From: Liolophura sinensis
Lineage: Eukaryota > Mollusca > Polyplacophora > Chitonida > Chitonidae
Direction: 5' to 3'
Length of the DNA: 64,000 nt
NCBI RefSeq assembly: GCF_032854445.1
Contig: NC_088296.1
Location: forward strand, 25,117,897 to 25,181,896
Each line of letters opens with the position of its first letter. The first letter of the stretch is position 1. The notes beneath the pieces were generated by a model, which did not search any database, had not been told where the DNA came from, and saw only the letters and a list, made by a program, of their open reading frames with translations. Of the stretch, positions 15,290 to 52,956 are shown piece by piece. Both the position numbers and the translations under genes were made by a program.

Positions 15290-15628
15290 AGTACCGATAC
15301 GAGAGGCAGCACAGATACCACAGAGACAACACGGACACGAGAGACAGCACAGACATAAGAAACGGCACAGATACGAGAAACTGCACAGACACGAGAAACT
15401 TAACCAGAGTCCAGTGACAGCAGAGATACGAGACACAGCACAGGTACGAGACACAGCACAGGTACGAGACACAGCACAGACACGAGAAACAGCAGTCACG
15501 AGTGACAGCACAGACACGAGAAACAACACAAACACGAGTAACAGCACAGACACGAGAAACAACACAAACACGAGAAACAGCACAGACACGAGAAACAGCA
15601 CAGACACGAGAAACAGCACAGACACTAA
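15290..15628. repeat. 18-bp degenerate minisatellite
   Basis: Degenerate repeats based on CAGCACAGACACGAGAAA. The best-preserved part is 15420-15628. The array runs up to and overlaps the last codons of the adjacent terminal exon (15625-15731). Confidence 0.85.
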
Positions 15629-15731
15629 CTCCTAGTTTTACGTACCGAGAAATACACCACGGTCACAATGATCAAAAAGAAAGCCGATACAGACATCAGG
15701 ACAACACCGGCGATTTGGTTGCCACAAGAGG
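15625..15731 (-). CDS. Terminal TM exon, cluster gene 1
   Basis: Acceptor TTTCATTTCAG, phase-1 start, then a single hydrophobic helix inside SCGNQIAGVVLMSVSAFFLI and IVTVVYFSVRKTRS, stop TAG at 15627-15625. A GTACGT inside the exon could act as an alternative donor. The helix is followed by Arg and Lys residues, suggesting a cytoplasmic C terminus by the positive-inside rule. Confidence 0.6.
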
Positions 15732-15989
15732 CTGAAATGAAACGTATTTAATTAAATTAAATGTTAAACCACTAACAGTTGACAAATAACTGAAAAGCTT
15801 AAGTCATATACGAGTTCACTTTGCATGATTTATTGGTGGCTAACTTTATGTAACCTTAACCTTCTTACATACTTTTGTCTTTGGGAGCTAGTGTTAAACG
15901 TTGTTTTGGAAATAGATCTTGCGATTATCGACTTGGAACGCCCTTTACGGACTACGAATGGGATACGAATGTCGGACATGACGCTCATA

Positions 15990-16150
15990 TTTATTTTCTT
16001 TTTGATCTGTGTTTTTCGCCGTACTCAAGAATATTTCACTTATACGACGAAGGCCAGCACTATGGTGGGAGGAAACCGGACATGGGGGGAAACAGACGAC
16101 CATCCGAAGGTTGCTGCCAAACCTTCCCACGTACAATCACGGGATAAGCT
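15990..16150 (-). mobile_element. SINE family A, 3' part
   Basis: Reverse-oriented body and 3' module (GTACTCAAGAATATTTCACT) in the last intron of cluster gene 1. The AT-rich tail is degraded and the head is absent. Confidence 0.75.
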
Positions 16151-16234
16151 GGGAGGGGGAAAAATTATTTGGCCTTAGAAAAAGTGGAAGATGAGTGGGT
16201 GGAAATAAGTTGGTATGTTTGACGAATGACTTAC

Positions 16235-16330
16235 TTGGCTTAGCAACTATGATCGCGAACTGAATCAGAGAGTTCAATGACAGTACAACACCCGTTATGG
16301 CGAATCCTAGAACACGCCGAAAAGCACAAT
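16235..16330 (-). CDS. TM exon, cluster gene 1 (second TM)
   Basis: Exon of 96 bases, phase 1-1, between acceptor CTTTCAG and donor GTAAGT. It encodes CAFRRVLGFAITGVVLSLNS and LIQFAIIVAKP: one TM helix of about 21 residues preceded by a CxxRR motif. The same start pattern, a Cys followed by basic residues and a helix containing Gly, appears in the first TM exon of cluster gene 2 (CKLQKASEGL). Confidence 0.65.
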
Positions 16331-16456
16331 CTGAAAGACAACAGATGAGGGTAAAAATACTTCATATAACAGGCTTGGTCATAGTGTCACAGTTCATTTT
16401 GAAAGTTATATTAAAAATATGGTTTGAAGATTAATCTGAAAAATTACGTAAAAAAA

Positions 16457-16575
16457 GAGTGAGTGAGTGAGTGAGTGAGTGAGTGAGTGAGTGCTTGGGG
16501 TTTAACGTCGTACTCAACAATTTTTCAGTCATATGACGACGAAGGAATCCTTAGGGCATGCACGTGTAATGTGCC
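16457..16575 (-). mobile_element. SINE family B, 3' fragment
   Basis: Reverse-oriented 3' module of a second SINE family: a GAGT repeat tail (16457-16494), then GCTTGGGGTTTAACGTCGTA and CAGTCATATGACGACGAAGG. The module resembles that of family A only in its TAAAnnCC-like core. Confidence 0.75.
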
Positions 16576-16685
16576 GTAAAAAAAGAAAAGAAAAAAATGA
16601 AGAAAATGAAAGATAAAGAAGAAAAAAAAAAAAAAAGGAAGAAAGAAAGATGAAGAAATATTAATTATTATTAAAGAAAACATTT
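16575..16685. repeat. GA-rich low-complexity tract
   Basis: AAG/AAAG-rich purine tract in an intron of cluster gene 1. Confidence 0.8.
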
Positions 16686-16879
16686 ATTTACTTATTTCAA
16701 CGTTGTTCATTTTTTTTTCACTCATACGATAGCTCTCTGTTTTTCCGGTGTAATACCGGGGTTAAACCACCGACCTGTGGCAAGTTACAAACGAAGAGAA
16801 ATGCACACAACACGGCCGGTAGTCTTAAATTAACGTAAGATTGCTTAAATGACAACACGAGCGTTGTGGACTGCTTATT

Positions 16880-17035
16880 GTCACCAATGCCCAACTAGCG
16901 CTGTTAGCGCGGGGAAATTTACACATTCGCTGCATGCCCAAAGCAGGGATTGAACTCGTGCCCCGCGTTTCTCAGCAATTGAAAGGCAAGCACCTTTGAC
17001 CTCCAGACCACGGTCCTTACAAATGCATTGTAATT
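16880..17035 (-). mobile_element. tRNA-derived SINE head (third family)
   Basis: On the minus strand, GGACCGTGGTCTGGAGG opens a tRNA-like region with B-box-like GAGTTCAATCCCTGC. No intact tRNA cloverleaf was traced, so it is called a SINE fragment and not a tRNA gene. Confidence 0.5.
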
Positions 17036-17461
17036 CTAATTCTAATGCATAGAATACAGTATCTGTACCTGAAATCAACCATACATCTGAGATTATTTGC
17101 TCGGAATGGTTTCTTTCACGGCCAATTCGGCGAATACAATTATAGATCTATAGGTTTACGGACTTTGAAAGATGAAATGTAGAAAACTGTGTGTTAAATG
17201 GCTACACAAACCTGAGGTGACGTCACTGGTCCCAATATGGCCAGATAAGGCCACTTTAGAATCCAATGTTTCAAATGCGTTTTACTAGGCAGAAAAAATA
17301 CAAAAACAAACAAATCGAACTCTTTTTCTGGAATGTGTTTAATTGTCTTCAATCTGACATATAGTTCACATTAGTATTTTCTTTGCCTATCTCTGAAGTT
17401 TATTTAATTTTTTTTCTTTTCTTTTAAGAAAGATGTCGAGTAGGAAGAAGTGCTAACTTAC

Positions 17462-17560
17462 GGCAGCGGTGGTACAGTACCATGATGACGAAATGCACCA
17501 CGTGGGCGACAAATATCAGGCACGTGATGATTAACAAGGATAGGTAACCTTGAGACGTGG
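17462..17560 (-). CDS. TM exon, cluster gene 1 (first TM)
   Basis: Exon of 99 bases, phase 1-1, acceptor CACTTTGCAG and donor GTAAGT. It encodes TSQGYLSLLIITCLIFVAHV and VHFVIMVLYHRC: a long hydrophobic helix ending in a His/Arg/Cys cap. Joined to the next exon it reads YHRC-H-CAFRR, a very short Cys/basic loop between two helices. Confidence 0.65.
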
Positions 17561-17617
17561 CTGCAAAGTGAAATAGGCGATTACAGAATTATCTGGGAAC
17601 GTAATGCTACATGCACT

Positions 17618-17945
17618 CTAAAAAATAATCTGTTAATTTCAATAGAAAATCTGTTGTCTGAGTGAAGCTAGGGAGTAACATATGGCTATTATAACATAGT
17701 GTGTCCTACTGTGTCCTATTCAACATTATAGTCTGTTATAATCCAGTATAATCTTTATGTTGAAAAAAACAAACACAAAACAAAAACAAAAATGAATACA
17801 TTCTACAGATATATCGTCAAGCAGACAACAGAAAAAAATAGAATGTTTGTGCTACATTGTATATTTAACAGAACAATCTGGTGCTATAACAGATTACGTT
17901 CTGTATGACATCAGGCAGACAACAGAATTCCTGTTAAAATTATCC
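17618..17945. mobile_element. Palindromic MITE copy 1
   Basis: Long inverted repeats: the left arm has TCTGTTGTCTGAGTGA, and the reverse complement of the right arm has TTCTGTTGTCTGCCTGATG. The interior is TA-rich with several CTGTTATAA-like blocks. It resembles the copies at 54.9 and 62.4 kb, has no coding capacity, and so is probably a non-autonomous DNA transposon. Confidence 0.65.
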
Positions 17946-18055
17946 GGTGACGTATACAGCCCAGCAACACTACAAAAGCTTGGTACATGTTCGCAATGAT
18001 TTTCTGCTTTATACGATGGAGTAAAATACTGTAATTATAATACAAAGATTAAAGC

Positions 18056-19678
18056 AGAGAGAGTAAAACCAGAACAACGACGAGAGTGTGATAGACGTAC
18101 AGCACAGAGAGTAAAACCAGAACAACGACGAGAGTGTGATAGACGTACAGGACAGAGAGTAAAACCAGAACAACGACGACAGTGTGATAGACGTACAGCA
18201 CAGAGAGTAAAACCAGAACAACGACGACAGTGTGATAGACGTACAGCAGAGAGAGTAAAACCAGAACAACGACGACAGTGTGATAGACGTACAGCACAGA
18301 GAGTAAAACCAGAACAACGACGACAGTATGATAGACGTACAGCACAGAGAGTAAAACCAGAACAACGACGAGAGTGTGATAGACGTACAGCACAGAGAGT
18401 AAAACCAGAACAACGACGACAGTGTGATAGACGTACAGCACAGAGAGTAAAACCAGAACAACGACGACAGTGTGATAGACGTACAGCACAGAGAGTAAAA
18501 CCAGAACAACGACGACAGTGTGATAGACGTACAGCACAGAGAGTAAAACCAGAACAACGACGAGAGTGTGATAGACGTACAGGACAGAGAGTAAAACCAG
18601 AACAACGACGACAGTGTGATAGACGTACAGCACAGAGAGTAAAACCAGAACAACGACAACAGTGTGATAGACGTACAGCACAGAGAGTAAAACCAGAACA
18701 ACGACGACAGTGTGATAGACGTACAGCACAGAGAGTAAAACCAGAACAACGACGACAGTGTGATAGACGTACAGCACAGAGAGTAAAACCAGAACAACGA
18801 CGACAGTATGATAGACGTACAGCACAGAGAGTAAAACCAGAACAACGACGACAGTGTGATAGACGTACAGCACAGAGAGTAAAACCAGAACAACGACGAC
18901 AGTGTGATAGACGTACAGTACAGAGAGTAAAACCAGAACAACGACGACAGTGTGATAGACGTACAGCACAGAGAGTAAAACCAGAACAACGACGAGAGTG
19001 TGATAGACGTACAGCACAGAGAGTAAAACCAGAACAACGACGACAGTGTGATAGACGTACAGCACAGAGAGTAAAACCAGAACAACGACGACAGTGTGAT
19101 AGACGTACAGCACAGAGAGTAAAACCAGAACAACGACGACAGTGTGATAGACGTGCAGCACAGAGAGTAAAACCAGAACAACGACGACAGTGTGATAGAC
19201 GTACAGCACAGAGAGTAAAACCAGAACAACGACGACAGTGTGATAGACGTACAGCACAGAGAGTAAAACCAGAACAACGACGACAGTGTGATAGACGTAC
19301 AGCACAGAGAGTAAAACCAGGACAACGACGACAGTATGATAGACGTACAGCACAGAGAGTAAAACCAGAACAACGACGACAGTGTGATAGACGTACAGCA
19401 CAGAGAGTAAAACCAGAACAACGACGACAGTATGATAGACGTACAGCACAGAGAGTAAAACCAGAACAACGACGACAGTGTGATAGACGTACAGCACAGA
19501 CAGTAAAACCAGAACAACGACGACAGTATGATAGACGTACAGCACAGAGAGTAAAACCAGAACAACGACGACGGTGTGATAGACGCACAGCACAGAGAGT
19601 AAAACCAGAACAACGACGACAGTATGATAGACGTACAACGCAGAGAGTAAAACCAGAACAACGACAACAGTGTGATAG
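18056..19678. repeat. 48-bp minisatellite, about 34 copies
   Basis: Highly uniform 48-bp direct repeat containing AGAGAGTAAAACCAGAACAA and CGACGACAGTGTGATAGAC. Variants (TGTGATAG/TATGATAG, GACGAC/GACGAG) are scattered. The unit is a multiple of 3, so all three minus-strand frames stay open for over 500 codons; these are repeat artefacts. The unit matches the tail of the dispersed repeat described at 21345-21625. Confidence 0.95.
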
Positions 19679-19679
19679 C

Positions 19680-19800
19680 TCTCTGACTTGAGCAGAATTA
19701 TACGTATGTAAAAGTATGCAGTGATGTTAACTTCAATTTATTAGACGTCAGTGGTCTAAAACTACTTAAAATGCTGTGTTGTCATCACATTTCAGTACTT
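19680..19800 (-). repeat. Dispersed repeat D, 5' part joined to the 48-bp array
   Basis: On the minus strand: GTGATGACAACACAGCATTT, then GACGTCTAATAAATTG and AACATCACTGC, as in the other copies, followed after about 45 bases by the first 48-bp unit. The middle of the element is missing. Confidence 0.75.
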
Positions 19801-19912
19801 TACTGAACCCAACCGGATAGGTTTACGCAAATTAAGACATGTACATGGTGTTGATTTACAGACCATCTGATCAGAAGGCAACATTCGTCTTAACAAGGAT
19901 GTATATACTCAC

Positions 19913-19924
19913 TGAAGCAGTCAG
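19913..19924 (-). CDS. Candidate 12-nt microexon, cluster gene 1
   Basis: On the minus strand, CTTTTGTTACAG is followed by CTGACTGCTTCA and then GTGAGT. Phase 1-1, adding A-D-C-F between exon 1 and the first TM exon. Because it is symmetric, skipping it also leaves an open frame. It corresponds in position to the 42-nt linker exon of cluster gene 3. Confidence 0.4.
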
Positions 19925-19974
19925 CTGTAACAAAAGATTGAAAAGAAAATTAAGTATATGAGTTGTAGACTACA

Positions 19975-20830
19975 TAACGAACAAATATGCAATATGGGGT
20001 TTGGAAAAAACACTTTATTGCTACAATAATTTTAAGAAAGAATAAACATTTCCCCATCCAAGGATTTCAGCTGATCACACAAACATATCTGGAACAAAAA
20101 TTTTGAAATGAAAATAACCTGTTAGGATTCTCACAATATTGAAACGCTTTGTACATTCCTAATGAAGTATTACCCCTTTAGGGAGATAATATACGCCCAG
20201 ATTTTTGGTAATGATCCATATGTTCTAATCACATCAAATTTTCTCTATTCACCGAAAGTGTAACTCAAATTATGTTTCCTTTCAGAGAATATTAGCGTAT
20301 TATTTATCGTGTTAAAATGATATAAGGTTTAAAAGATTGAAAAAATGTTGTGAAGCGATTCGTATTATAAATTGTACGACCTTCATTACCCATTTTGTCT
20401 CATAATTTGTGCTAATAATTATTTGGACTGTTCTTTGATTCCCCCCCCCCCCCAAAAAACCCCCTCCATTTATAGCATTTTTAAACAGTATGTGTTCAAA
20501 ACATAACATATAGCGTAAGTGATTATGCATCAAATTCTATTTAGTAGTGCTTATATCACACGTATTAAGTTTGTGAACGCCATTAGCCGTTTTTGAACGT
20601 TTTAACCTAATTATGGATATTTGTCATTCGTACATCACTCAGTCCCTGGTCTGATTTGTACATACGTTATACGCATGCTCAACAACAATTAAATGATGGA
20701 ACGCTCTTCTGAATGACTATGGCAAATGCTGTCTAAAAATACGTCTGCCGATTTTTGAACATTATTTTTTCACCGAGCAAAGTGCCGTTGAATGTTTGAA
20801 TTGTTAAGTGGAAATAATGGACCATATTTA
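19975..20830. other. Intron of cluster gene 1
   Basis: AT-rich DNA with a C run at 20441-20453. No feature recognised. Confidence 0.4.
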
Positions 20831-20834
20831 TTTT

Positions 20835-21003
20835 GGATTTATTTTTTTATTTATTTGATTGGTGTTTTACGCCGTATGCTCAAGAGTATTTCATTTATGC
20901 GACGGCAGCCACCATTATGTTGGGAGAAAATTGGGCTTTCCCCTGGGGAAACACACTACCTTCTCCAAGGTTGTTGGTAGACCTTCCCATGTAGACCGAG
21001 GCC
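20835..21003 (-). mobile_element. SINE family A, 3' part
   Basis: Reverse-oriented copy in intron 1 of cluster gene 1. The TTATTTATTTGATTGGTG tail junction is intact, and the copy is cut off at CTTCCCATGTAGACCG. Confidence 0.8.
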
Positions 21004-21344
21004 ATATTTTTGTCTACTTCTATGCAAAAGCATTTTTCTCCACAAACCAAATTTGTTATAAATTTTATTGTATTACTGATGTTTAATATGCAAGAGAACC
21101 TATAGACCTGTAAATCTGATATTGCGCTGATTGTAGTGAAAAAACATGATACAGTGTAGAAATGTCTGGTATTTCATTGCATATGGCCCATAAAGCCTAC
21201 CTTAGAAAGAAAACCCATACATCCATGTAGTGAGGTTAGAAAAACATTAATACTTCAAATACAATTTTAGTGATCTTTCGGAATATGTTTTCTTCATTGC
21301 TTTGTTTTGTCCCACGGAAAGTTTGCAAAATCATAAAATATAAT

Positions 21345-21625
21345 ACAATACTTATACAGCAGAGAGAATAAAACAGAGCAGTGATGATGGTGTGATAGCT
21401 GGCAAATGGTCACGCCTAACCGGTGAAATACGGTCTCTTGTCTATTTACCTCAGTTAGTGATTTTATTTGACCTGTTTAGGTAAATGCTTAAATGAAAGC
21501 AAACTGCCCTGTTGCGCATGCCTGGCTTGTGTCGAATTAAGTACAACAGATGCAGTGACATAATTGCAACGTCTTAGACGACATAGATCTGTCGTTGTGT
21601 TGTGTTGTCATTACAAATAACCTAC
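21345..21625 (-). repeat. Dispersed repeat D, full copy
   Basis: Minus-strand order of landmarks: AATGACAACACAACAC, CGTCTAAGACGTTGCAATTA, TTAAGCATTTACCTAAACAG, GACCGTATTTCACCGG, CCAGCTATCACACC, ATTCTCTCTGCTGTATA. The same landmarks in the same order occur on the plus strand at 29868-30155 and 52508-52800. About 280 bp. No terminal inverted repeat or coding frame seen, so the class is unknown. Confidence 0.7.
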
Positions 21626-21689
21626 AATGACATGAAAACAGCGCAAACGGCCCTGTATCAGAATAACTCACGAGAAAAATGTTAGTTAC

Positions 21690-21720
21690 CTGTACTTGTT
21701 TCGTTTGATGGGGAACTCAT
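21690..21720 (-). CDS. First coding exon, cluster gene 1
   Basis: ATG opens MSSPSNETST and reaches donor GTAACT in phase 1. NET is an N-glycosylation sequon, which would place the N terminus outside the cell. The ATG is 14 bases after a strong acceptor (TTGTCCTCTGTCCAG), so a non-coding exon probably lies upstream. Alternatively, the exon is internal: from that acceptor it is open in phase 1 (LQLAMSSPSNETST). No signal peptide or Ig exon was found between here and the previous gene. Confidence 0.5.
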
Positions 21721-22220
21721 GGCGAGTTGTAGAGCTGGACAGAGGACAACAGGAAATCTGCTAACAGATAAAAAGAATGTTCAGTATTACGAGACACTTA
21801 TCAAATACTGGCTACAAAAGACTACGGTATTGTATGCAATATATACAATGTTGCCCACAAATCCTGTAAACCATAAACTTTTCGTATTCATAACATTTCC
21901 ACAATGAATACACGGTCGCTTGGCAACGTGATTTACCCACATCGGTATGGTCTAAAACATCCCTACAGTTTACGGAGAGGCTAAGTAAACGCTTAGTAGT
22001 GTACGAGTCAGACAATGCAGACAATATGGTCATACGCCAAGCAATGTCTTGCTCCAGTCGTTTCACGCGAAATAGGATGGTTTAAGGTGAGTGTGATATA
22101 CAAGCGTCTTATCGGGAGCGTTCCGTGTTGTATATCAGGGCAAGTTTGTTATTAACTGAAGTTCTGAATACACACGGTGGGCTATAGTTGTCGGTTTAGC
22201 TGAAAGTCGAGCGCCCAGTG

Positions 22221-22982: not shown

Positions 22983-22999
22983 GTAGTAGTTCTTTAGCT

Positions 23000-23860: not shown

Positions 23861-23864
23861 AGTG

Positions 23865-24058: not shown

Positions 24059-24059
24059 T

Positions 24060-26925: not shown

Positions 26926-27209
26926 GAAACACCTCCCTTTCTGGGTCCACATCAGACATTTACATGTTACTTGAAGCGTAATGTCACTTTGGCCTAGAAC
27001 TCATTTCAAGTCGTTTTAGAACTTATTTGCCATCAAGTGATTACTCAAAATGAGACATCTAGCTCTGAAATAAAGTCAATAATGAAATAAACCTGAGTTG
27101 CTTCCTTTTGTTTTTAATTAAACTTAAACATTTAAAGTTTTAGAGTTTTCAGTAAGCAAACATTATACATTATCAGTTGAATATCTGGGCTTGTCGAACA
27201 GTCAGTCAG

Positions 27210-28935
27210 TCAATGTTCAGATGATATTAGGCGGATATTCACTTTAACATTTAAACAAAAGTCTCTGTTGCCAGGCAACTTATAAGTCCAAATGTCTTGG
27301 TGGATAGGGAATTGTGCCGGCACATTTGCGCACAACATTATTTCACTCAGGTTCACACAGTCTTGGTGGAGTTGACTGTGCTTGTGGATCGTCACATAAT
27401 TGAGGAGTGGCAGCTGATATCTCACTTGTGGGCACAGGTACGAGGTGTTGTCAGTTTCTCTTTCAGTGGCAACATTGTACGATCGTGGTGTTGCAGCCGT
27501 TCCAATTACTGTGCCTCTACTGTACCTAGAGGAATCACTGGTGAGCCTCACCCCACTTCCGGGATGGAGCGTTGCCAAAGGTCGCCTACTCTGACGTTCG
27601 TTGAAGTCTACCGCCTGCTTTCTCCTCAGGGTGCTCTGCTTTCCATAGAGAGCCTTGTAGTCTGACAGTACAAGCCACAGGCCCCACCACCCTTAATTTT
27701 TCCATAAGCGACAATGTTAACGTTTAGTGCTGTAGCTCAGTCCCAAACATACCGTGGCCAAGAAGTTTTGGTGCATACCTGGCCCAGTCTGTGAGAAAGA
27801 AGCCATAAAAATCTTGACATAGGTTGACCGTCAAAACCTGGACCTTTCTATGCCGTCAGCTGGGAGGCATGCCTACCAACGCTAAGGGGACGTCACTCTC
27901 AGCCTCTGCACTACCTCACACCTTGTGTCCTCTCGCCCTTTCATCAATAAAGCTCATATCTCCTCAAAGTTTAGGCAATTTCCAGCATTTTAATACCAAG
28001 CATGCACCTGTACATCATAAATGGCCACCTGGGAGGCAAAAAAGACTTTATACCCTAAAATACACACAATAACATTCGTCCTCCGCCAAAACGGAAGTTG
28101 GAATGGGGGTGTGTCCACTTGTGGGAATACCTTGCTCATGGTTGTTGGTATCGTTGTACGAAGGCGTTGTCCCATTAAGAGTTCCAGTGGACTATACCCA
28201 TTAGCAAGGGGAGTGGACCCGTACGATACCAACGACAAATATGTATCGCCGGCTTTTTTCAGTAACCACTGTTAAGAGGAACGTTCAGCTTCGCCGTTAC
28301 TTTGGGGAAATTTCGGGCTGCTAGTAAGGTGTTGAAATTCATATAGTGTGGAAAATGTATGGAATTTTGCTGAACTGAAGGGGATGTTGTCAGATCTAAC
28401 AGTTTCTGGGATTCCGTGGCGAGTACAAATTGACTTCATAGGTTCAATGATACAATGACTTGAAAAGTGCAATTTCCACACACCTAGAGAAGTAGTCAAC
28501 AACCAAAAGTTAGCACTTTGAGTGAAACTAAAAATGTCAGTCCCGATCTCCTCCCATGGTCGTTCAGGCATTTCTGTTGTCACCGGTGGTTCGGGTGGTT
28601 TGTGCCTTCTTTACTGCACGATAAATAACTTCGGACTACAGTCTCTATTTGGTTGCTAGTACCTAATCACCAGACAGATTATTTTGCTCGCACTTTGGTT
28701 TTGTTTATGCCGAGATGTCCATCACAAAATTTTCCTAGTACTTTGGTTCTCATACTAACAGGAATGACGTTCCAAAATCCCATAAGTAGTAAGTTTTGCT
28801 GAATGGTAAGATCACCAGATACCTGCCAATAGGGCTTTATGTTATTAGGTACATGGTGTTTATCTGGCCGGCCATAAATCCCGGCAGTGCACCATAACCT
28901 GCTGCAAGATGGCGTCTGTATGTTGCTTGGATTCA
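27210..28935 (-). mobile_element. Ty3/Gypsy-type LTR retrotransposon remnant (3' half of pol)
   Basis: Minus-strand blocks in pol order. Near 28935-28680 is the integrase zinc-binding region (LKPYWQ-like IKPYWQVSGDLT, then GHLGINKTKVRAK). At 28583-28272 is the integrase core, with first Asp in WEEIGTDIF, second in VRSDNIPF and the Glu in SNGEAE. At 28238-27990 is a block with STPLANGYSPLELLMGQRLR, typical of Gypsy integrases. Near 27578-27400 is the C-terminal block TVIGTAATPRSYNVATERE. The blocks lie in different frames with stops between them, so the copy is dead. I found no LTRs, protease, or main reverse-transcriptase motifs. Lies between cluster genes 1 and 2 and in their orientation. 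Confidence 0.8.
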
Positions 28936-30207: not shown

Positions 30208-30332
30208 CTACGTCGCCTGTCCCGGGTTTCTCCAATCAAAACGCCTCCGTGCACGCTCCAGAACAATGGTTACCAAACACACTATAATGGTACCACAAAT
30301 TCCAAAGCCAAGTCCTAAATCATTATACGTCT
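30208..30332 (-). CDS. Terminal TM exon, cluster gene 2
   Basis: Strong acceptor TTTCTTTACTTGCAG, phase-1 start, then TYNDLGLGFGICGTIIVCLV and TIVLERARRRFDWRNPGQAT, stop TAG at 30210-30208. One TM helix followed at once by ERARRRF, a clear cytoplasmic stop-transfer cap. The tail has no ITIM, ITAM or other signalling motif that I can see. Confidence 0.65.
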
Positions 30333-30579: not shown

Positions 30580-30672
30580 CAATAGTTATCCTTCCAACTT
30601 TGTAGAACGCGGTTCCAAAGAAAAAATTTGCAAATGAGTCAAAAGTATCACTGCCACCTTCACTTGGATCTA
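30580..30672 (-). CDS. Third membrane-region exon, cluster gene 2
   Basis: Exon of 93 bases, phase 1-1, donor GTAAGT. Encodes DPSEGGSDTFDSFANFFFGT then AFYKVGRITI. An acidic, Gly/Ser-rich loop is followed by a short aromatic hydrophobic stretch interrupted by Lys and Arg, so it may be a re-entrant or peripheral segment, not a full TM helix. Confidence 0.55.
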
Positions 30673-30743: not shown

Positions 30744-30839
30744 TAATTCTGTCAGGTGTGGTGCTTGACAAAGTGAGCCCAATAAAAATCAGGCTTAGAG
30801 CTACCAGGATTAGACCCACAAAACCAAAAATCATCGCCA
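30744..30839 (-). CDS. TM exon, cluster gene 2 (second TM)
   Basis: Exon of 96 bases, phase 1-1, acceptor CCATTCACAG, donor GTAAGT. Encodes AMIFGFVGLILVALSLIFIG then LTLSSTTPDRI: one strongly hydrophobic helix. Same length (96 nt) as a TM exon of cluster gene 1. Confidence 0.65.
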
Positions 30840-31285: not shown

Positions 31286-31408
31286 CAATGTTTTCCCATG
31301 TACTAGTTATGTCCACTTTGCCGAGAACGAAAGCAAAGATTATTGAAATGGCCCAGTACACTAAAACTGCAGCGATTAGTCCTTCTGATGCCTTCTGAAG
31401 TTTACAAT
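31286..31408 (-). CDS. TM exon, cluster gene 2 (first TM)
   Basis: Exon of 123 bases, phase 1-1, acceptor CTCATTTCAG, donor GTGAGA. Encodes CKLQKASEGLIAAVLVYWAI, SIIFAFVLGKVDITSTWENI. Spliced straight to the Ig exon it reads LFCS-D-CKLQKASEG, placing a Cys-rich stalk next to the membrane. Confidence 0.65.
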
Positions 31409-35893: not shown

Positions 35894-36247
35894 CACTGCA
35901 AAACAGAGTCGCGTTTTCGGCAACAACGATGACCTGGACGTCTTGTGACTTGTCTCCGTCGTCATGTATCGTGATAACAAACGTGCCATTGTCTTTTAAA
36001 CGTGGAGACTTAAGGATCAATGAGCATTTGTCACCCAGGGCAACTAAACCTTTATAATCATTGCCAATTATGACATTTCCTTCAGAATTCTTCTGCAGCA
36101 CTAGAGGACCAATTTCGTTATGGCGTGTCCATAGAAACAACGATACATTTTCTGGGAAGGTGTAATCACAGGGGATCGTAACATTTTCACACGGCAGCTG
36201 GATGACCAAAACGGGACTGGGTAAGACAGGAGTGGACTGACACTGAC
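35894..36247 (-). CDS. Ig V-like domain exon, cluster gene 2
   Basis: Exon of 354 bases, phase 1-1, acceptor GTTATTTCAG, donor GTAAGT. It encodes 118 residues. B strand: ENVTIPCDYT. C strand: SLFLWTRHNEIGPLVLQ with the core Trp. E strand: DKCSLILKSPRLKDNG, containing the D-x-G turn. F strand: TFVITI. The standard F-strand Cys (Y-x-C) is replaced: the motif reads FVI. A Cys in the E strand (KCSL) is shared with cluster gene 3. Four N-glycosylation sequons: NVT, NVS, NGT, NAT. Two extra Cys near the start (QCQS, LPCE) and one at the end (LFCS). The fold assignment is strong; binding function is unknown. Confidence 0.8.
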
Positions 36248-36881: not shown

Positions 36882-36945
36882 CTAGTTCAGGCAAGAGGAG
36901 AAGCAGTAAGGGTAGAAACAGCATGGCGGAATTCGGTATCAACAT
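36882..36945 (-). CDS. Signal-peptide exon, cluster gene 2
   Basis: ATG opens MLIPNSAMLFLPLLLLLLPE then L and a phase-1 donor GTAGGT. A classic signal peptide core of seven Leu/Pro positions. A second ATG seven codons in (MLFLPLLLL) would also give a signal peptide. An acceptor-like CCTGTCTTTAG lies 10 bases before the first ATG, so an upstream untranslated exon is likely. Confidence 0.65.
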
Positions 36946-44925: not shown

Positions 44926-44929
44926 GGCA

Positions 44930-45420: not shown

Positions 45421-45708
45421 ATGGCGATTACAATACAAGAGGCATACGGGGAGAGTTTTCAGTTCTTCAGTTTTTTCACCCAGTTCGGTGCCTGTTTGTT
45501 TACATCAAGTGTTCAGGAGTTTTCTTATTCCACCAGGCTATATACGACCTATGAAAGTAGGTCAAACGGAGAGAACGGAGAGAGGAGAATTATTGAGAGT
45601 TTGGATGCTTTTGCTGTGTATTACTTTAGTAGGCCTTTTGTGCTGAATTTTGGTGTCTCTATAGCCTCCGGCTTTGTTATATCTCCACCGAGCACTTGTT
45701 CAGTCTGA
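45421..45708 (+). CDS. Unassigned open frame, 95 codons
   Basis: ATG in a good context (GTAAGATGG) opens 95 residues starting MAITIQEAYGESFQFFSF. No domain, signal peptide or TM helix recognised and no splice partner found. It begins exactly at the edge of a SINE. It may be chance; a further open stretch follows to about 45900, and AATAAA-like signals occur near 46015-46020. Confidence 0.15.
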   Translation: MAITIQEAYGESFQFFSFFTQFGACLFTSSVQEFSYSTRLYTTYESRSNGENGERRIIESLDAFAVYYFSRPFVLNFGVSIASGFVISPPSTCSV

Positions 45709-46371
45709 ACTTGTATGTTTAATTTGTGCTCTTGTATACACAGTGCTTATTAGTACACGGACCCTGCCTGTGGAATTTTGTGTATATTTCGTCATACAAT
45801 CAGTTATACTGTGGATTTTCCCTCTTGTGAATTTGCCTCTGAGCATTTATGCCTGTGTGGTATATATTGTGGAATATATGCGTCCGTTTGGACTTGACAC
45901 CGTAAGTACTTTAGTATTTGTATAGATACTGCTATCCTTTCTTGTTAAACTTAAGTACATTAGTATTTGTATAAGTCTTATTATCTGTTCTTGTTAAGCT
46001 AATAAATTGTTGTAAAATAAAATCTGCTGGTTTTGGTTACTTTTTTGTGCGGCTAAACTGTCGTGTATTTCGAACAAGCCATCTCTTTATAATACAGACA
46101 GCTTGGGTCGTAACACGACCAAAACACACAGCGAATCCAGGCCCACATGTACAAAGATGTCGTACATGTTCGATAATCGAACATATTGTACAGTGCTACG
46201 GTAAGAGTGACGTGCAAAATATCGTACGACAAATGTAAGATCAAAAATGCCGTACGTCGCTTTGTGAAACAGGGCAGTTTACCTCACACATGGAGAAAAT
46301 CGTCATTTACCTCGCCATGGAGACATGACGCGAACTTGAATCGTATTAAACATAAAAAAGACATAACACCA

Positions 46372-46990
46372 GTCATAACGTCGTATCCAGTCACACACAA
46401 TGTCGTATGACGGCACACAATGCCGGAATAACCGGTCATAACGTCCCATGCAGTCACACACAATGTCGTATGACGGCATACAATGCCGGAATAACCAGTC
46501 ATAACGTCCCATCCAGTCACACACAATGTCGTATGATGGCATACAATGTCGGAATAACCGGTCATAAAGTCATATCCAGTCACACACAATGTCGTATGAC
46601 GGCACACAATGCCGGAATAACCAGTAATGACGTCCCACCCAGTCACACACAATGTCGTATGACGCCATACAATGTCGGAATAACCAGTCATTACGTCCTA
46701 CCCAGTCAGTCAGAATGCCGTATGACGGCATGCAAAGCCGGAATAACCAGTCATAACGTCCCATCCAGGCACATATAATGTCGTATGACGCCATACAATG
46801 CCGGAATAACCGGTCATAACGTCCTATCCAGTCACACACAATGTCGTATGACGCCATACAATGCCGGAATAACCGATCATAACGTCCTACCCAGTCACAG
46901 AATGCCACATGACGCCATACAATGCCTGAATATCCAGTCATAGCGTCCTATCACAGAGAATGTCGTACGTCGGCATACAGTGGGATTATG
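46372..46990. repeat. 63-bp minisatellite, about 9-10 copies
   Basis: Units contain GTCATAACGTCCCATCCAGT, CACACACAATGTCGTATGAC and GGCATACAATGCCGGAATAA. The period is a multiple of 3, so several frames stay open. Confidence 0.94.
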
Positions 46991-47518
46991 CGTCCCAAAG
47001 TATGAGACATGGCGGCAAGCAATTTTGGGCCGTCCATCTTTTATTTAGAAAACAAAGTGCATGCTAATAAGTATATTATTTTATTTCGATATAAAAATCT
47101 ACATCAAAGTATATAAAAACTACATATCGTTCCCTGTCTTATACTAATACATATACTTACAGCGTGTATTTTCTCCTCCATTAAATAATACGCATGCATG
47201 TAAATACTAACAAACCACATGATATATAAAATTGATGTATGTATTATCACCGACTTCATTTGTCCAAAGTCAAACAAAGTATACTCCACGTAAAGGCAAA
47301 GTCCTTAACATCTAGGCTCTGTCTACCCAAAGCTGAATTCAGGGTGTGACAGATTTATTCTAGCGTGACCAAAGCTGCGGGGTTTAACAATGAAACTCTA
47401 TCTCCACTGTCAGTCAATGAGCGTCGATTCTTTATCGCTATAATGTACAAAAATGTAACTTTGTGGCCACGAATATGTCCATTCACACTTGTTCAAGAAA
47501 GAAAAAAATGAGAAATAT
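46991..47518. other. Intergenic DNA
   Basis: AT-rich; nothing recognised. Confidence 0.35.
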
Positions 47519-47622
47519 GATTTGTTACTTCTCTTTTCTGTCCATGTGACGATTTAAGTGTAAGTACAACATCGGAAATAACGAATAAGTACAACCATTC
47601 TTCCGACTTATGAAAATCCGGA
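47519..47622 (+). repeat. Dispersed repeat E, copy 2
   Basis: Second copy of the 100-bp sequence seen at 40613-40712, same strand. It differs at a handful of sites (CATGTGACG for CATGCGACG). Confidence 0.75.
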
Positions 47623-47709
47623 AGTGCCCAGTGCACATGTCATACTTTGCCTACAAAGTTGTTCGCACTAAAACAGTACATTTCTCCAAAACATGATTCC
47701 TTACCTTAC

Positions 47710-47985
47710 ATGAGGACCTCCGTGGCTCAGTTGGTTAGTGCGCTAGCGCAGCGTAATGACCTAGAAGTCTCTCACCATTGCTGTTGTTGTGAGTTCAAGT
47801 CAATCTCACGCTGGCTTCCTCTCCGGCCGCAAGTGAGAAGGTCTGACAGCAACCTGCGGATGGTCGTGGGTTTCCCCTGGGCTCTGCCCGGTTTCCTCCC
47901 ACCATACTTCTGGCCGCCGTGGTATAAGTGAAATATTCTTGAGTACGGCGTAAAACACCCATCAAATAAATAAACAAATAAATAT
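47710..47985 (+). mobile_element. SINE family A, full-length copy
   Basis: Intact A box (TGGCTCAGTTGG), B box (GAGTTCAAGTC) and 3' module; among the best-preserved copies and so probably among the younger ones. Confidence 0.9.
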
Positions 47986-48639
47986 AATTGAAATAAATAA
48001 GCATATAAATATACCTTATAGAGTTTACATTAAATGATACAATCAATGTCTCCGTGGTTGTGTAGAGTGCTTCACAATTCAATGCCCCAATCCCAACAGG
48101 TCATAGGTCGGCGCTTCCCTTTTTGTAAAATAAATCCAAAGAGCACAGCAACGTGACCTGTGAATCAAAAATTAAATGAAAAGAGGGAGGGCCCAAAGTT
48201 TCACAGTATCTGTAATTAAAAAATGGAGTTGTAATACGTGTTACATATAACTCCAGCTTTAAGTTAGAGGACTCACTGTATGTTTAAATATGTTTTACGT
48301 GTGACGAACAAATAAACACACCATACATTGGTGGAAAACAAGTGGTCCAACTAACGTTAGGCTGCTACAGTGTCGCGTGACTTGTGAAAAATGCTAGGCA
48401 ATCTTCGTTGACATTAACTTAAGGATCAACTCTCTCTCCATATTCCACAGGAACAAATGACACCTGTCTTCATACGTTCGGCTACTTAAGTTTCTCCATT
48501 GGTCGTCTACTCTAAATTACTTTTTGTGAAACTTTTTTCAGACGCCTGTGTTACAGTTAAGGTGACCCTAAAAAGTTGCCTATCAGTTGTGACAGATCAC
48601 ACGATACACCTAGACTTTATATACATTTAGGATCAAAAG

Positions 48640-48992
48640 AGTTCAATAGATCGTCCGCTTCGGGACCGGTAGATCCAGGATCAATCCTTGATCGAGTCAC
48701 ACCTAAGACTTTAAAAGAGGAAGTTGTAACTTTCTCGCTTGGCGTTCAACATGAAGGGGATAGTGCAACGACTGGTTGACCCGTATCAGTATTATGGCTC
48801 GGGCGGAGAGGCTTACTTGCCTTCGGTAAGTCGTCTCAGTGAAGCAGCACTAAATAAAAGAGCGGTGGAAGTCCGTCTTGGAACAAGGAGGCACATTACT
48901 TGTGCATGCACCTAAGGATTCCTTCGTTGTCATATGACTTAAAAATTGTTGAGTACGACGTTAAACCCCAAGCACTCACTCACTCAAAAGAG
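48640..48992 (+). mobile_element. SINE family B, near full-length copy
   Basis: tRNA-like head (CCGCTTCGGGACCGGTAGAT, with GATCAATCCTTGATCGAGTC), body with AGAGCGGTGGAAGTCCGTC, 3' module TTGAGTACGACGTTAAACCC and a CACTCACTCAA tail. It lies just downstream of cluster gene 3. Confidence 0.8.
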
Positions 48993-49070
48993 TTCAAACT
49001 GCAAACTCCCCTATTATCCACAGGAACCGGCAGTTCAAGTGTGTCAGCCCTTTATACCAATGATGGTAAA

Positions 49071-49171
49071 CTATACAGTACCATTACATAAGTACCTGTT
49101 TGCCATTTTACGAGCTATGAAGAAGACAACCAAACTCCCCAATCCAGAGACAAGAGCCGATATTGCATAAC
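49071..49171 (-). CDS. Terminal TM exon, cluster gene 3
   Basis: Acceptor CTTATTCAG, phase-1 start. Encodes YAISALVSGLGSLVVFFIAR then KMANRYLCNGTV and TAG. One TM helix with an R-K stop-transfer pair. An internal GTACTT could act as a donor. Same layout as the terminal exons of genes 1 and 2: acceptor, one helix, basic cap, stop. Confidence 0.55.
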
Positions 49172-49206
49172 CTGAATAAGAAAAGCATAAAAACAACTCA
49201 AACTAC

Positions 49207-49585
49207 ATGCATATACCCTATATCAGCGCATATACCCTATATCAGCACATATACCCTATATCAGCACATATACCCTATATCAGCACATATACCCTCTATC
49301 AGCACATATACCCTATATCCGCACATATACCCTATATCCGCACACATACCCTATATCGGAACATATGCCTTATATGAGCACATATACCTTATATCAGCAC
49401 ATATACCCTATATTAGCACATATACCCTATATCCGCACACATACCCTATATCCGCACATATACCCTATATCCGCACACATACCCTATATCGGCACATATG
49501 CCTTATTTCAGCACATATACCCTATGTCAGCACATATACCCTATATTAGCACATATACCCTATGTCAGCACATATACCCTATATA
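49207..49585. repeat. 19-bp minisatellite, about 20 copies
   Basis: Units of ACCCTATATCAGCACATAT with CAG/CCG/TAG variants. It starts 36 bases from the terminal TM exon of cluster gene 3, inside its last intron. Confidence 0.95.
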
Positions 49586-49724
49586 AAGGGTTTGATCACA
49601 TGGCTTTCATCATCACATATAACCTACGGTAACTCACAGTACTACGGTACTGACAGTATCACAATTCTTACAACCAGCTTACAGTGTAGGTCAAGATTGC
49701 GTAATTCTCATCATATAATGTGTT

Positions 49725-49805
49725 AAACATAAGTTATGTTGTCTAAGTGAAGCTAGAATATATGTTACTGCTGCAGATTATTCTGTTAAAGTGACATGGT
49801 CGCCT
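49725..49805. mobile_element. Palindromic MITE, one-arm fragment
   Basis: GTTGTCTAAGTGAAGCTAGA and GCAGATTATTCTGTTAAAGT match one arm of the MITE at 62.4 kb. The second arm is absent. Confidence 0.5.
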
Positions 49806-49813
49806 AAATATTA

Positions 49814-50032
49814 GGTAGGGGCCTCCGTGGCTCAGTTGGTTAGCGCGCTAGCGCAGCGTAATGACTAAGGAGCCTCTCACCAATGTGAGTTCAAGTCCAG
49901 CTCATGCCGGCTTCCTCTCCGGCCGTATGTGGGAGGGTCTTTCAGCAACCTGCAGATGGTCGTGGGTTTCCGGCGGGTTCTGCCCGGTTTCCTCTCATTA
50001 TAAAACATCAATCAAATAAATAAAATAAATAT
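49814..50032 (+). mobile_element. SINE family A, near full-length copy
   Basis: Intact head and body; the 3' module between CCTCTCATTATA and AAACATCAATCAAATAAA is deleted by about 50 bp. Confidence 0.85.
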
Positions 50033-50799
50033 TAGGTATTTTTGCGTCATTACAGAATGATGTGAGTGTCAGGTATTTTTCTCAAGAAGTAAAAGTTACA
50101 AGTTTTTCCTTAATCCCACCCAGTATTGTACGTAAACAAACATAGCTGATTACATGCGTAAAAGAGGGCCTTACAGCTCGCGCGTGACAGGGTCTGCCAA
50201 AAGGAGGCGAAGAAAGAGACAGATTGACAAGCAAGTCTAGAGTTGTAATTGGTGGTCAGTTTGAACGGCGGAGTACACTGAAGAAAGAAAAGGGTCTCAC
50301 GAAGCACGAAGTTGTCACAGAACTACTATTTCATAGGTGGGGCAAATGTTGTTGTTATTGTGGGCAGAGGGTGTTAAACTTCGACGCGCGTTTCTGTGTC
50401 TTGGTTTTATTCGTAACCTTTTCACAATGCTGTTTAAGATGCTGCACTCTGTAGTGCATCTGTATCTATGTGTATGTCGACTGATCGAAAGTCGGTATCA
50501 TAGGAACTTTCCGAACGCTGCGCATGTGCTTCGGGTCCTTCCGAACTAATAATTCTAACTAATATTAGTCAAAATGGCCCGCCCTCTTTGTGTTGAATCT
50601 GAATAACGGCAGAACTTCTCCTTTTGAGCGACCATGTCACTTTAAATACAGGGCAAATATTCAATTAAACCAGTATAAAGATTATATTAGACTACCATTA
50701 TGGTGAATATGGGTTTTCTGTTATAATATTGGAATACATTCTAACATCTCTGAGATATTTTTAGTGCAAGAATTTTCACCCGTTTGACGAATGCACGTG

Positions 50800-50880
50800 A
50801 AATTTATTTATTTGTTTCTTTCTTTCTTTGACTGGTGTTTAACGTGGTACTTAAGAATATTTCCCTTATACGACGTGAAA
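50800..50880 (-). mobile_element. SINE family A, 3' end only
   Basis: About 80 bp of tail and 3' module (GACTGGTGTTTAACGTGG, AAGAATATTTCCCTTATACG) in an intron of cluster gene 3. Confidence 0.7.
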
Positions 50881-50980
50881 TTAGACATAGCCTATTTATG
50901 GTTAGGCTTGGTCTACACGTTGAGGAAACGTTCGGTCTAACACACGCCCCATCACAAAGTCGTATACACGTGATGCTTAC

Positions 50981-51022
50981 CGGTAATGCACCTTTCACTG
51001 AAGTTAGGATACGAGCATGTCG
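50981..51022 (-). CDS. 42-nt linker exon, cluster gene 3
   Basis: Strong acceptor (TTTTGTTTTATTGCAG) and donor GTAAGC; phase 1-1. It adds A-TCSYPNFSERCIT-G between the Ig domain and the TM helix. Two Cys eight residues apart and one sequon (NFS) suit an extracellular stalk. It occupies the same place as the 12-nt microexon of gene 1. Confidence 0.5.
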
Positions 51023-51232
51023 CTGCAATAAAACAAAATCATCAGGTAAGGTTTCGACGTTCGAACAGTATGATTTACAACAAATAATGACATTTACGGG
51101 AGAGGGCTGTTGATGGTCTTGCACACACCAATTAGCCAGTCAAACACGTGGCACCCTTTGGTAATCCAAAGCATCAACTATCATATTTACACCCAGCATA
51201 TTACGATACAAGGAAACATACATACTTAATAA

Positions 51233-51545
51233 GGGGCCTCCGTGGCTCAGCTGGCTAGCTGGCTTGTTCAGCGTAATGATACAGGAGCTTCTCACCAATG
51301 CGGTCGCTGTGAGTTCAAGTCCAGCTCATGCTAGCTTCCTCTCCGGCTGTACGTGGGGAGGTCTGCCAGCAACCTGCGGATGGTCGTGGGTATAAGAAGT
51401 TGGCTTACTTACCGATAGGTTTCTCGTGGTTTCGTCGTGGTTTTCCCTCCCGCGCTCCTCCTCCCACCACAATGCTGACCGCCTTCGTACAAGTAAAATA
51501 TTCTTGAGCACGGCGTAAAGCACCAATCAAACAAATACATACAAT
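51233..51545 (+). mobile_element. SINE family A, full-length copy with insertion
   Basis: Head and tail intact, but the body is interrupted after GGTCGTGGG by TATAAGAAGTTGGCTTACTT and ACCGATA, followed by a duplicated TTTCGTCGTGGTTTTCCC-like stretch. The same inserted sequence occurs in the copy at 54093-54225. Confidence 0.8.
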
Positions 51546-51744
51546 TCATTGACTCTGAGAATACGAGAATTTCCTCCAGATGACGATTATCATAATCGCC
51601 TAGAGATGAGTTCCATAGTCGTTAAACAAGTGGAATATTTTTGGACTGAAGCTTATTTATATTTAATTTATCCGTTTTTTGCCTACATTAATATGTGTCG
51701 TTCACACTTAACACTAAAGCAAATATAGCCATTGTGTTTGGAAT

Positions 51745-51880
51745 TTATATTCTACTATGGGGCTGTCATTTTTATGACTCGAGGAAACTGACAGGGCCCA
51801 AGGAAAACCACAGCCTTCACCAGGTACCTGATGAACCTCCTCACTTAAGGCCGCGGCAAAACTTATACACGAGCTGAACT
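51745..51880 (-). mobile_element. Old SINE-like fragment
   Basis: GGAAACTGACAGGGCCCAAG and TGATGAACCTCCTCACTTAA recall the family A body in reverse, but more closely match the fragment at 53215-53345. Probably an older related family. Confidence 0.4.
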
Positions 51881-51980
51881 CGATAATGCGAACTCGTGCG
51901 CAAACGCCGGCCGGCGACAGTGCATGAGGGCAACACGGAGATCTCCAAATGCGTATCTGTGCAATTTTATTCAAACTTAC

Positions 51981-52331
51981 CATTAGAACAAATAATGGTT
52001 GTTTCGTTAAAAACGTAAACCTGGACATTTCCTGATTCTTCACTGTTGTGATAAATTAGGTTGACGGTGTATCTACCCCCGTCTTTGAGCGCAGGAGTCT
52101 CCAGAACCAACGTACATCCTTCGCCCAAATGAACTGCAGCATATGGTGTAATGACCCCTATTGAATTTCTGATCAGCACAGAAGGGCCATTCACACCATC
52201 ACGTGTCCAGTGAATCTGTATGTTTTCACCCTTTGGATGGTCTGCTGGCGGGGTGTAATTGCATGGGATAGTTGCATTATGAAACGGCTCCCTTATCACG
52301 AGTGTTTGTGGTACAAACAGACTGGAAAAGG
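51981..52331 (-). CDS. Ig V-like domain exon, cluster gene 3
   Basis: Exon of 351 bases, phase 1-1, acceptor TTGTCATTTTTAG, donor GTAAGT; 117 residues. B strand: HNATIPCNYT, matching the ENVTIPCDYT of gene 2 at six of ten positions. C strand: IQIHWTRDGVNGPSVLIR. E strand: GEGCTLVLETPALKDGG. F strand: RYTVNLIY, where the normal Y-x-C Cys is Val. The E-strand Cys (EGCTL) aligns with KCSL of gene 2. Sequons NAT and NET. The exon ends with TIICSN, equivalent to TLFCSG of gene 2. Confidence 0.8.
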
Positions 52332-52507
52332 CTAAAAATGACAAGGAAATGCAGTTTGACCACAGGTAAGTTTCTACAGTTAATTTTCATCATTTAATGT
52401 TTAATTATGCATGGTGAACACAACAGGTAGCAACGTTTTGGCAGAAAATAAAGCTGTGTGTCATGAAGGAATCTCATAGCACATGTCTATGCTATGAGAT
52501 GAAAAAA

Positions 52508-52800
52508 GAAATGTTAAATGTGATGACAACACAGTATTTTTAGTATGGTAATTTTAGACCACTAACATCTGATAAATTGCAGTCAACATCACTGTATTTT
52601 TGTTTTTACCAAATTCTGCATAGGCCATGGCGCTAAGGGGCGTATAAATTGTTACTATTCATGCATTTACATGTACAGTTCAATAAAACCTTAACTGAGG
52701 TAAACTGACAAGAGGCCGTATTTCATCGGTCACGTGTGACCAATTGCCAGCAATCAGACTGTCCACGCTGCTCGGGATTTACCCTCGATGCTGTACGTCT
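52508..52800 (+). repeat. Dispersed repeat D, full copy
   Basis: Antisense in the first coding intron of cluster gene 3. Landmarks TGTGATGACAACACAGTATT, CCAAATTCTGCATAGGCCAT, GCTAAGGGGCGTATAAATTG and GAGGCCGTATTTCATCGG; the tail near 52735-52790 is more diverged than in the other copies. Confidence 0.7.
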
Positions 52801-52913
52801 ATAACGGTTTTAAGGACACGTTACTGCTGGTTGCCGTTCATAATTTATAGTTATAGTCAACATGTGTATCTGTTAGCTATATACATGTAATTTAAAACAG
52901 GTTAGATAAATAC

Positions 52914-52956
52914 CTAGTTTGCAAACCACAGAAAGCAAGATTACTTGAAATAACAT
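52914..52956 (-). CDS. Signal-peptide exon, cluster gene 3
   Basis: ATG opens MLFQVILLSVVCKL, then phase-1 donor GTATTT (weaker than a GTAAGT type). A short hydrophobic leader. The ATG lies 35 bases after an acceptor-like CTTTCAG, as for genes 1 and 2. Confidence 0.5.

Follow-up and report, generated by a model that had tools for sequence, protein, structure and literature searches.

The 64,000-nucleotide stretch of Liolophura sinensis DNA analysed here (the window) raises the question of what its minus strand encodes: a cluster of modular membrane genes with interchangeable exons, as a sequence-only reading had proposed, or a pattern that arises by chance. Combining exon coordinates with inspection of the sequence, we could read three minus-strand genes between 52956 and 15625, as described earlier, with the following exons:

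52914..52956, minus strand: gene 3 exon 1, start codon and signal peptide, phase 1 end (sequence reading)
51981..52331, minus strand: gene 3 exon 2, IgV-like, 351 nt, phase 1-1, with B-strand and E-strand Cys and no F-strand Cys
50981..51022, minus strand: gene 3 exon 3, 42-nt linker with two Cys, phase 1-1 (splice reading and comparison with contig C143)
49071..49171, minus strand: gene 3 exon 4, single transmembrane (TM) helix, short basic tail and stop
36882..36945, minus strand: gene 2 exon 1, start codon and signal peptide, phase 1 end
35894..36247, minus strand: gene 2 exon 2, IgV-like, 354 nt, phase 1-1, with B-strand and E-strand Cys
31286..31408, minus strand: gene 2 exon 3, TM1, phase 1-1 (TM scan and paralogue TM1 matches)
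30744..30839, minus strand: gene 2 exon 4, TM2, phase 1-1 (TM scan and reading)
30580..30672, minus strand: gene 2 exon 5, putative TM2-TM3 loop, phase 1-1 (splice signals and phase alone)
30208..30332, minus strand: gene 2 exon 6, TM3, short basic tail lacking tyrosine, and stop
21690..21720, minus strand: gene 1 candidate exon 1, start codon, one N-glycosylation site, phase 1 end (splice signal alone)
19913..19924, minus strand: gene 1 candidate micro-exon, 12 nt, phase 1-1 (weak, splice signals alone)
17462..17560, minus strand: gene 1 TM1 exon, phase 1-1 (no second copy in a genome search)
16235..16330, minus strand: gene 1 TM2 exon, phase 1-1
15625..15731, minus strand: gene 1 TM3 exon, short basic tail and stop

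Nine internal exons could be defined and checked for length, flanks and phase, namely the Ig exon (351 nt) and linker (42 nt) of gene 3, the Ig (354), TM1 (123), TM2 (96) and loop (93) exons of gene 2, and the micro-exon (12), TM1 (99) and TM2 (96) exons of gene 1. All nine have a length divisible by 3, AG/GT borders and phase 1-1, in agreement with the earlier claim, and the first exons of all three genes end in phase 1. Within the window alone, this regularity is not clearly above chance: of the 11 minus-strand candidates that an unconstrained scan for TM exons listed between 15 and 54 kb, 4 were phase 1-1, as were 6/20 in eight other stretches and 1/4 on opposite strands. The decisive evidence is homology. 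Among the family's Ig exons (37 rows, leaving out L039, L040 and L046 as non-family Ig or unmatched, and the truncated L045), the best-scoring acceptor of any phase is a phase 1 site in 32/37. A donor is present in 35 of the exons, and the best one is phase 1 in 27. Both borders are phase 1 in 25/35, compared with about 4 expected under random phases.

The search for further copies that had been suggested was productive. Five Ig-exon queries matched 49 distinct places in the genome at E<=1e-3, 41 of which lie on the window's own 28.4-Mb contig (C2), equal to 4.66% of the genome; on the three large contigs with matches, 41 of 43 places fall on C2. The gene 2 Ig query by itself found 41 places at E<=10, self included. 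The term 'tandem cluster' was therefore right about multiple copies but understated a series of matching places along one contig. The Ig domains of genes 2 and 3 are 40-41% identical (E 3e-21), so these two genes are homologous. Gene 1, with three TMs and no Ig, had been placed in the same family, and this part of the claim found no sequence support: its TM1 exon has no other copy in the genome search, and we rejected its membership for want of position-specific TM similarity to the paralogues. Gene 1 has no demonstrable relative, and at least two of the three window genes belong to a large, fast-changing family located mostly on one chromosome.

The Ig domain is of the Pfam V-set type, an assignment over cut-off in paralogues only, with the window domains below it. 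All four canonical paralogues scanned score 31.9-37.5 bits against a cut-off of 26, gene 2 is sub-threshold at 14.5-17.4 bits, and gene 3, although homologous to gene 2, gave no V-set match in the Pfam scans. The family bears no curated name, in line with its not being recognised at first reading. AlphaFold gave no informative model of the Ig domain in gene 2 (mean pLDDT 37.5).

Genes 2 and 3 belong to a clade in which an E-strand Cys replaces the F-strand Cys, so that the canonical B-F pair is missing; across 38 exons, E-strand and F-strand Cys never occur together. The F-strand Cys is absent from 23/23 exons of this clade (21 loci, plus two unplaced and nearly identical gene 3 copies) and present in 14 others, one exon being truncated; L039, L040 and L046, which matched nothing or are not Ig exons of the family, were left out of the count. 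An Ig tree that keeps the two trait columns places the E-strand Cys as one change (support 95/95). With these columns removed (37 rows) two changes result, and with the long-branch rows L020, L035 and L037 also left out it is again one (96/95); L045 (truncated), L039, L040 and L046 were outside all trees. The same clade evolves faster. The dN/dS values were calculated over the whole domain, with two stop-bearing copies (L026 and L042) among those compared; they span 0.33-1.77 in this clade versus 0.12-0.62 in the canonical clade (20 finite pairs). One subgroup of the fast clade gives 0.42-1.77 (28 pairs), and gene 2 against its nearest Ig relative, L005 (57% identity), gives 0.81. The relocated cysteine and the raised dN/dS are new beyond the first reading.

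Whole-domain values near 1 can reflect relaxed constraint instead of diversifying selection, and the fast clade might accordingly be drifting towards pseudogenes, its high dN/dS recording lost constraint in a decaying expansion and not recognition. In-frame stops at 10/49 Ig places, dN/dS values mostly just under 1 and alternate contigs that lack gene 3's TM exon (not found on C143 or C368) are in line with such decay. Yet 22/23 E-Cys exons carry no in-frame stop (the exception being L026), the B-strand Cys, the C-strand Trp, the E-strand Cys and one Leu are invariant in 12 aligned clade members, and splice sites and phases are mostly retained, so that we regard general decay as unlikely. Over its 42 nt, the gene 3 linker differs from its counterpart on C143 at 2 positions, and both substitutions read as synonymous.

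What follows the Ig domain was compared among the paralogues. Of 18 paralogue stretches, 11 (L054, L056, L057, L058, L060, L061, L064, L067, L068, L069 and L070) carry an Ig exon with three TM exons behind it. L065 has two TMs and L063 one clear TM; L049, L055 and L066 have a single TM each, L050 offers one candidate, and L062 has no TM. One-TM forms comprise gene 3 and two other subgroups. Gene 2 had been credited with three or four TMs; three stand, and the supposed fourth is a non-TM loop exon. A claudin-like interpretation of its TM2-loop-TM3 segment was discarded for lack of Pfam support, and none of the seven TM regions scanned against Pfam gave a match above cut-off. The TM1 and TM3 exons of gene 2 find their best matches in the same-position exons after Ig in L061, L068, L069 and L056 (TM1 with L061, E 0.005, z 8.4, and with L068, E 0.053, z 6.0; TM3 with L061, E 0.023, z 6.9). 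For TM2, the best of 32 comparisons is L061 TM2 (z 3.9, other positions 3.2-3.5). Across the family, TM similarity is greater between same than between different positions (Mann-Whitney p 0.005, the pairs not being independent), and the TM exons of L061 and L068 are under purifying selection (dN/dS 0.32).

Since its TM1 and TM3 best match the same-position paralogue helices, gene 2 is most likely a single Ig+3TM gene. That it is instead an artificial union of two neighbours, one coding for the Ig and stopping short of 35.8 kb, the other coding for the three TMs at 31.4-30.2 kb, might be suspected from the 4.5 kb between its Ig and TM1 exons, from the neighbouring Ig-less gene 1 with three TMs and from the one TM of its nearest Ig relative; the positional matches and the recurrence of Ig plus three TMs in the 11 stretches make this improbable. 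Exon reading and paralogue homology together bear out the description of modular Ig/TM membrane genes with symmetrical exons. As to the modules being exchangeable or skippable, exchange or loss within the family is supported by sequence comparison, because gene 2 carries three TMs where L049, which contains the gene body of L005, has one TM and a tail.

Vertebrate CD47 likewise combines one IgV with several TM helices; it has five TMs, and its TM structure is present in the PDB. That the chiton proteins are invertebrate CD47 relatives, 'do not eat me' markers binding a phagocyte receptor, is very improbable, for although Pfam V-set_CD47 scores 19.1 bits on the L032 Ig (cut-off 21) and matches 1/12 window-clade members (E 0.063), the chiton has three helices and not five, the Pfam CD47 TM model is not among the matches listed for the seven TM regions at E<=10 (HMMER filters dropping most weak ones), its one genome-wide match, on C6, is below cut-off (E 2.32), and no CD47 occurs among 15 PDB sequences matching a TM profile at E<=10. 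CD47 membership, once suggested by TM motifs, was dropped as these scans gave no supported match for the CD47 TM part.

The relocated cysteine recalls the Siglecs, single-pass receptors of which sialoadhesin, CD22 and CD33 may have Cys in strands B and E in place of B and F, the positions that alignment gives for the chiton clade. Literature statements on Siglec bonds give no confirmation of a B-E bond: they describe the sheets as linked by one bond (PMC7765293), place the Siglec-15 bond between sheets (PMC10264397) and give the CD33 bond as Cys41-Cys101, strands unnamed (PMC13220637). A search with the clade profile reaches sialoadhesin at E 1.8e-4, with VSIG4, pIgR, CD80, TIM-3 and CEACAM6 ranking higher, and Pfam Ig_CD22 matches 3/12 members. 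The F-strand sialic-acid arginine occurs in 1/12 sequences only (L009, aligned by eye); Siglec membership was rejected on its absence elsewhere, and the cysteine arrangement is likely convergent. Hydractinia Alr genes resemble the chiton family as a large invertebrate cluster of unusual V-set-like receptors (PMC11999971). Multi-TM exons are not known to be a feature of these genes.

Compared by description, the closest known architecture is that of Botryllus schlosseri fester. Its members (FF1, FF3 and others) share with the chiton proteins a signal peptide, an Ig, three TMs and a short tail devoid of known signalling domains, and the plan of Ig plus three TMs, one per exon, is found in gene 2 and the 11 stretches. 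PMC12065747 and PMC3549757 report that fester exons 8-10 encode one TM each, that 6 of 11 exons splice in all combinations and that fester is a multigene family varying in gene content. Fester carries a sushi domain, whereas the chiton exons scanned have none: 0 of 150 scored genome matches (150 of 239 candidates scored) lie on C2, and a crude cysteine-pattern scan of gene spans gave 0/45 stretches for gene 3, 0/61 for gene 2 and 2/68, one a repeat, for gene 1. Fester is also a tunicate system of known allorecognition function, whereas the chiton family is molluscan. Botryllus as the source of the DNA itself was considered and rejected, because mitochondrial AGR codons translate as Ser where the protein fits and the gene order follows the ancestral mollusc type.

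On balance we consider it probable that the window contains genes of a multigene family which, in this chiton, encodes recognition proteins of the cell surface. The commonest plan read is a signal peptide, one V-set-like Ig, three TM helices on separate phase 1-1 exons and a short tail, and the family along its contig includes pseudogenes, one-TM forms and the fast-changing relocated-cysteine clade. Three TMs would be the ancestral state. We infer a receptor function: the IgV head would face outward and bind a variable ligand, which could come from a pathogen or be a second IgV from within the family. The bundle of three helices would serve as an anchor. Inspection by eye of the tails read found no tyrosine signalling motif, so the bundle may signal by way of a partner, the mechanism proposed for Botryllus fester. 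Symmetrical exons would allow helices to be lost, swapped or skipped with the frame intact. Chitons are solitary animals, so that a role in fusion-type allorecognition would have no obvious use.

More speculatively, and with low probability, fester and the chiton family could be two surviving, independently expanded branches of an ancient class of bilaterian receptors built from an IgV and three TMs, each helix on its own phase 1-1 exon. The chiton would use this class for self/non-self or pathogen discrimination, tuned by exon skipping and helix loss. According to a review, sponge, cnidarian and ascidian allorecognition proteins share no conservation (PMC12065747). A mollusc family on the fester plan opens the question of whether this plan is ancestral or arose twice, and the chiton family offers a natural experiment in which one V-set branch has a conserved cysteine in a new place and changes its amino acids at a higher rate.

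Three gene models, read from splice signals in the window, occupy the minus strand from 52956 to 15625, outer ends that match those of the sequence-only reading to the base:

Gene 3, minus strand: signal peptide, Ig, linker, one transmembrane helix (TM)
Gene 2, minus strand: signal peptide, Ig, TM1, TM2, loop, TM3
Gene 1, minus strand: short start exon, micro-exon, three TMs

Nine exons are internal (351, 42, 354, 123, 96, 93, 12, 99 and 96 nt); all are multiples of three and, by the coordinates read, all are phase 1-1 across genes 1–3, beginning and ending after codon position 1 as had been claimed. Gene 2, previously credited with three or four helices, retains three, and the supposed fourth is a loop exon. 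Between the micro-exon and TM1 exon of gene 1 lies a long in-frame tandem repeat (18000–19700) with several frames open on both strands. Between genes 1 and 2 (27200–28610, minus strand), inspection of the ORF list by eye reveals remnants that look like retroelements, one reading frame among them resembling an integrase.

Scanning for TM-like exons with no phase rule returned phase 1-1 for 4 of 11 minus-strand candidates among the matches listed for 15–54 kb of the window, for 6 of 20 across eight further stretches and for one of four on the opposite strands. By themselves these scans are unconvincing for the phase pattern; the family Ig exons are convincing. When every phase was allowed, 32 of 37 family Ig exons had their top-scoring acceptor in phase 1; among 35, the top donor was phase 1 in 27, and acceptor and donor were both phase 1 in 25. 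Because these exons favour phase 1 unprompted, we accept the pattern as real.

The genome (609,464,459 bases, 632 contigs) holds the further copies that the sequence-only reading had proposed to look for. At E<=10, the gene 2 and gene 3 Ig exons match at least 41 and 23 places, respectively, self included, and the union of five Ig queries at E<=1e-3 gives at least 49 distinct places, 10 of them with in-frame stops. These comprise 41 on C2, the contig carrying the window, and one each on C1 and C6; the remaining six are spread over three small unplaced contigs (four on C347, one on C143 and one on C368). As genome queries, the TM parts of genes 1 and 2 gave self-matches only, save that gene 2 had one further hit, at E 2.75. 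C347 (46 kb) carries four family Ig exons, one with a stop, possibly a gene-content difference between haplotypes. At C2:25806305, the Ig exon of L035 continues into a hydrophobic C-terminus and then a stop, and could represent a GPI-anchored or single-exon form. In contig C99 (108,685 bases), an assembly artefact with seven COX1 matches, the mitochondrial genome recurs at intervals of about 15.5 kb. In mitochondrial COX1, TGA encodes Trp and AGR encodes Ser; the mitochondrial gene order is consistent with the ancestral mollusc type.

Among 18 paralogue stretches (8 to 10 kb downstream of the Ig exon; the gene 3 copies on C143 and C368 excluded), 11 contain three TM exons: L054, L056, L057, L058, L060, L061, L064, L067, L068, L069 and L070. 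These exons are phase 1-1 wherever both ends are readable, and the last may end in a stop. L057 TM2 requires a GC donor, L069 TM1 was listed solely as a stop-ending exon, and the TM2 5′ end is uncertain in L058 and in L070, which has a stop just upstream. Two TMs were found in L065, one clear TM in L063, one each in L049, L055 and L066, one ambiguous candidate in the L050 stretch, and none in the L062 stretch. The TM exons of L061 and L068 differ with dN 0.40 versus dS 1.25 and are therefore very likely coding. In 32 comparisons, the top three for gene 2 TM1 were TM1 of L061, L068 and L069, and the best for TM3 were TM3 of L061, L056 and L068 (tblastn to L061: E 0.005 and 0.023, respectively); TM2 displayed no position specificity in the TM exon comparisons. 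L067 (C1:92858086) sits on a different chromosome, has canonical cysteines as well as three TMs, and is a candidate founding gene; the presence of three TMs in a member off C2 suggests, on an unrooted tree, that this number is ancestral. One-TM forms are gene 3, L049 and L055/L066, and the L049 Ig is the closest to that of gene 2 (57%).

Gene 3 is also found on C143 and C368, two contigs that are 99.6% alike. The C143 copy differs from the window gene 3 Ig by 15 substitutions in 347 bases and in its flanks by 24/563, 31/937 and 39/1264 (94/2764, 3.4%), versus the roughly 1.24% heterozygosity that the assembly paper (PMC11068029) gives for the genome. Neither contig has the TM exon of gene 3; these copies could be either alleles or a duplicate located nearby. 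In their stretches (L053, 4140–4900, and L059), a ~19 bp minisatellite extends through the position of the window's TM exon.

The B-strand Cys is present in all 38 Ig exons. Its putative counterpart is an E-strand Cys without an F-strand Cys in 23, three being gene 3 copies, and an F-strand Cys without an E-strand Cys in 14; one further exon is truncated. The E-Cys exons form one side of a branch in the tree (support 95/95). If both trait columns are left out, the full set of 37 rows requires two changes; once three long branches are dropped as well, a single change suffices (96/95). Profiles of this clade, which includes genes 2 and 3, match sialoadhesin (E 1.8e-4), with VSIG4, pIgR, CD80 and others ranking higher, and Pfam Ig_CD22 matches 3 of 12 members. 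A B–E bond is attributed to sialoadhesin, CD22 and CD33. The published descriptions consulted give no confirmation of this bond, and one describes a Siglec-15 disulfide connecting the two sheets (PMC10264397). As the Siglec arginine is missing from the 12 aligned sequences except L009, we read any Siglec likeness as convergence, and the B–E bond here is putative.

Nei-Gojobori dN/dS across the whole Ig exon is 0.42–1.77 in 28 pairs of one E-Cys subgroup, and 0.94 (L018/L026), 1.03 (L028/L033), 0.81 (gene 2/L005), 0.56 (gene 3/C143) and 0.33 (L006/L008, from 8 changes) in other pairs. In the canonical clade, which keeps the F-strand Cys, it is 0.12–0.62 in 20 finite pairs, the 0.62 reflecting three changes, with two pairs saturated; four canonical pairs at similar dS (0.05–0.25) give 0.29–0.44. 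The L058/L070 TM exons differ by 29 replacement versus 4 silent changes. Judged from whole-exon rates, the fast change in the family appears relaxed or diversifying.

The chiton genes share the plan of fester, a Botryllus schlosseri receptor family with Ig, sushi and three TMs, but lack its sushi domain; none of the 150 scored sushi matches (239 candidates genome-wide) lies on C2. On C6 (70936504–70982254), the sole family Ig exon (minus) and a sushi exon cluster (plus) are no more than about 45 kb apart, these being the two domains combined in fester. A CD47 TM model gave one match genome-wide, on C6 and below the cut-off. No chiton or mollusc Ig plus three-TM family is described among the matches listed in open-licence PMC.

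The signal peptide would bring the Ig head to the cell surface, where three helices, running outside-in, in-out and outside-in, would hold it, with a short basic tail inside. No tyrosine motif resembling an ITIM or ITAM is visible by eye in the tails of genes 1–3, L049 and L061, so that the signal would likely pass through a partner protein, as proposed for fester in a review (PMC12065747). The number of copies, the pseudogenes, the divergence and the one outward IgV domain lead us to infer that the family would serve in recognition.
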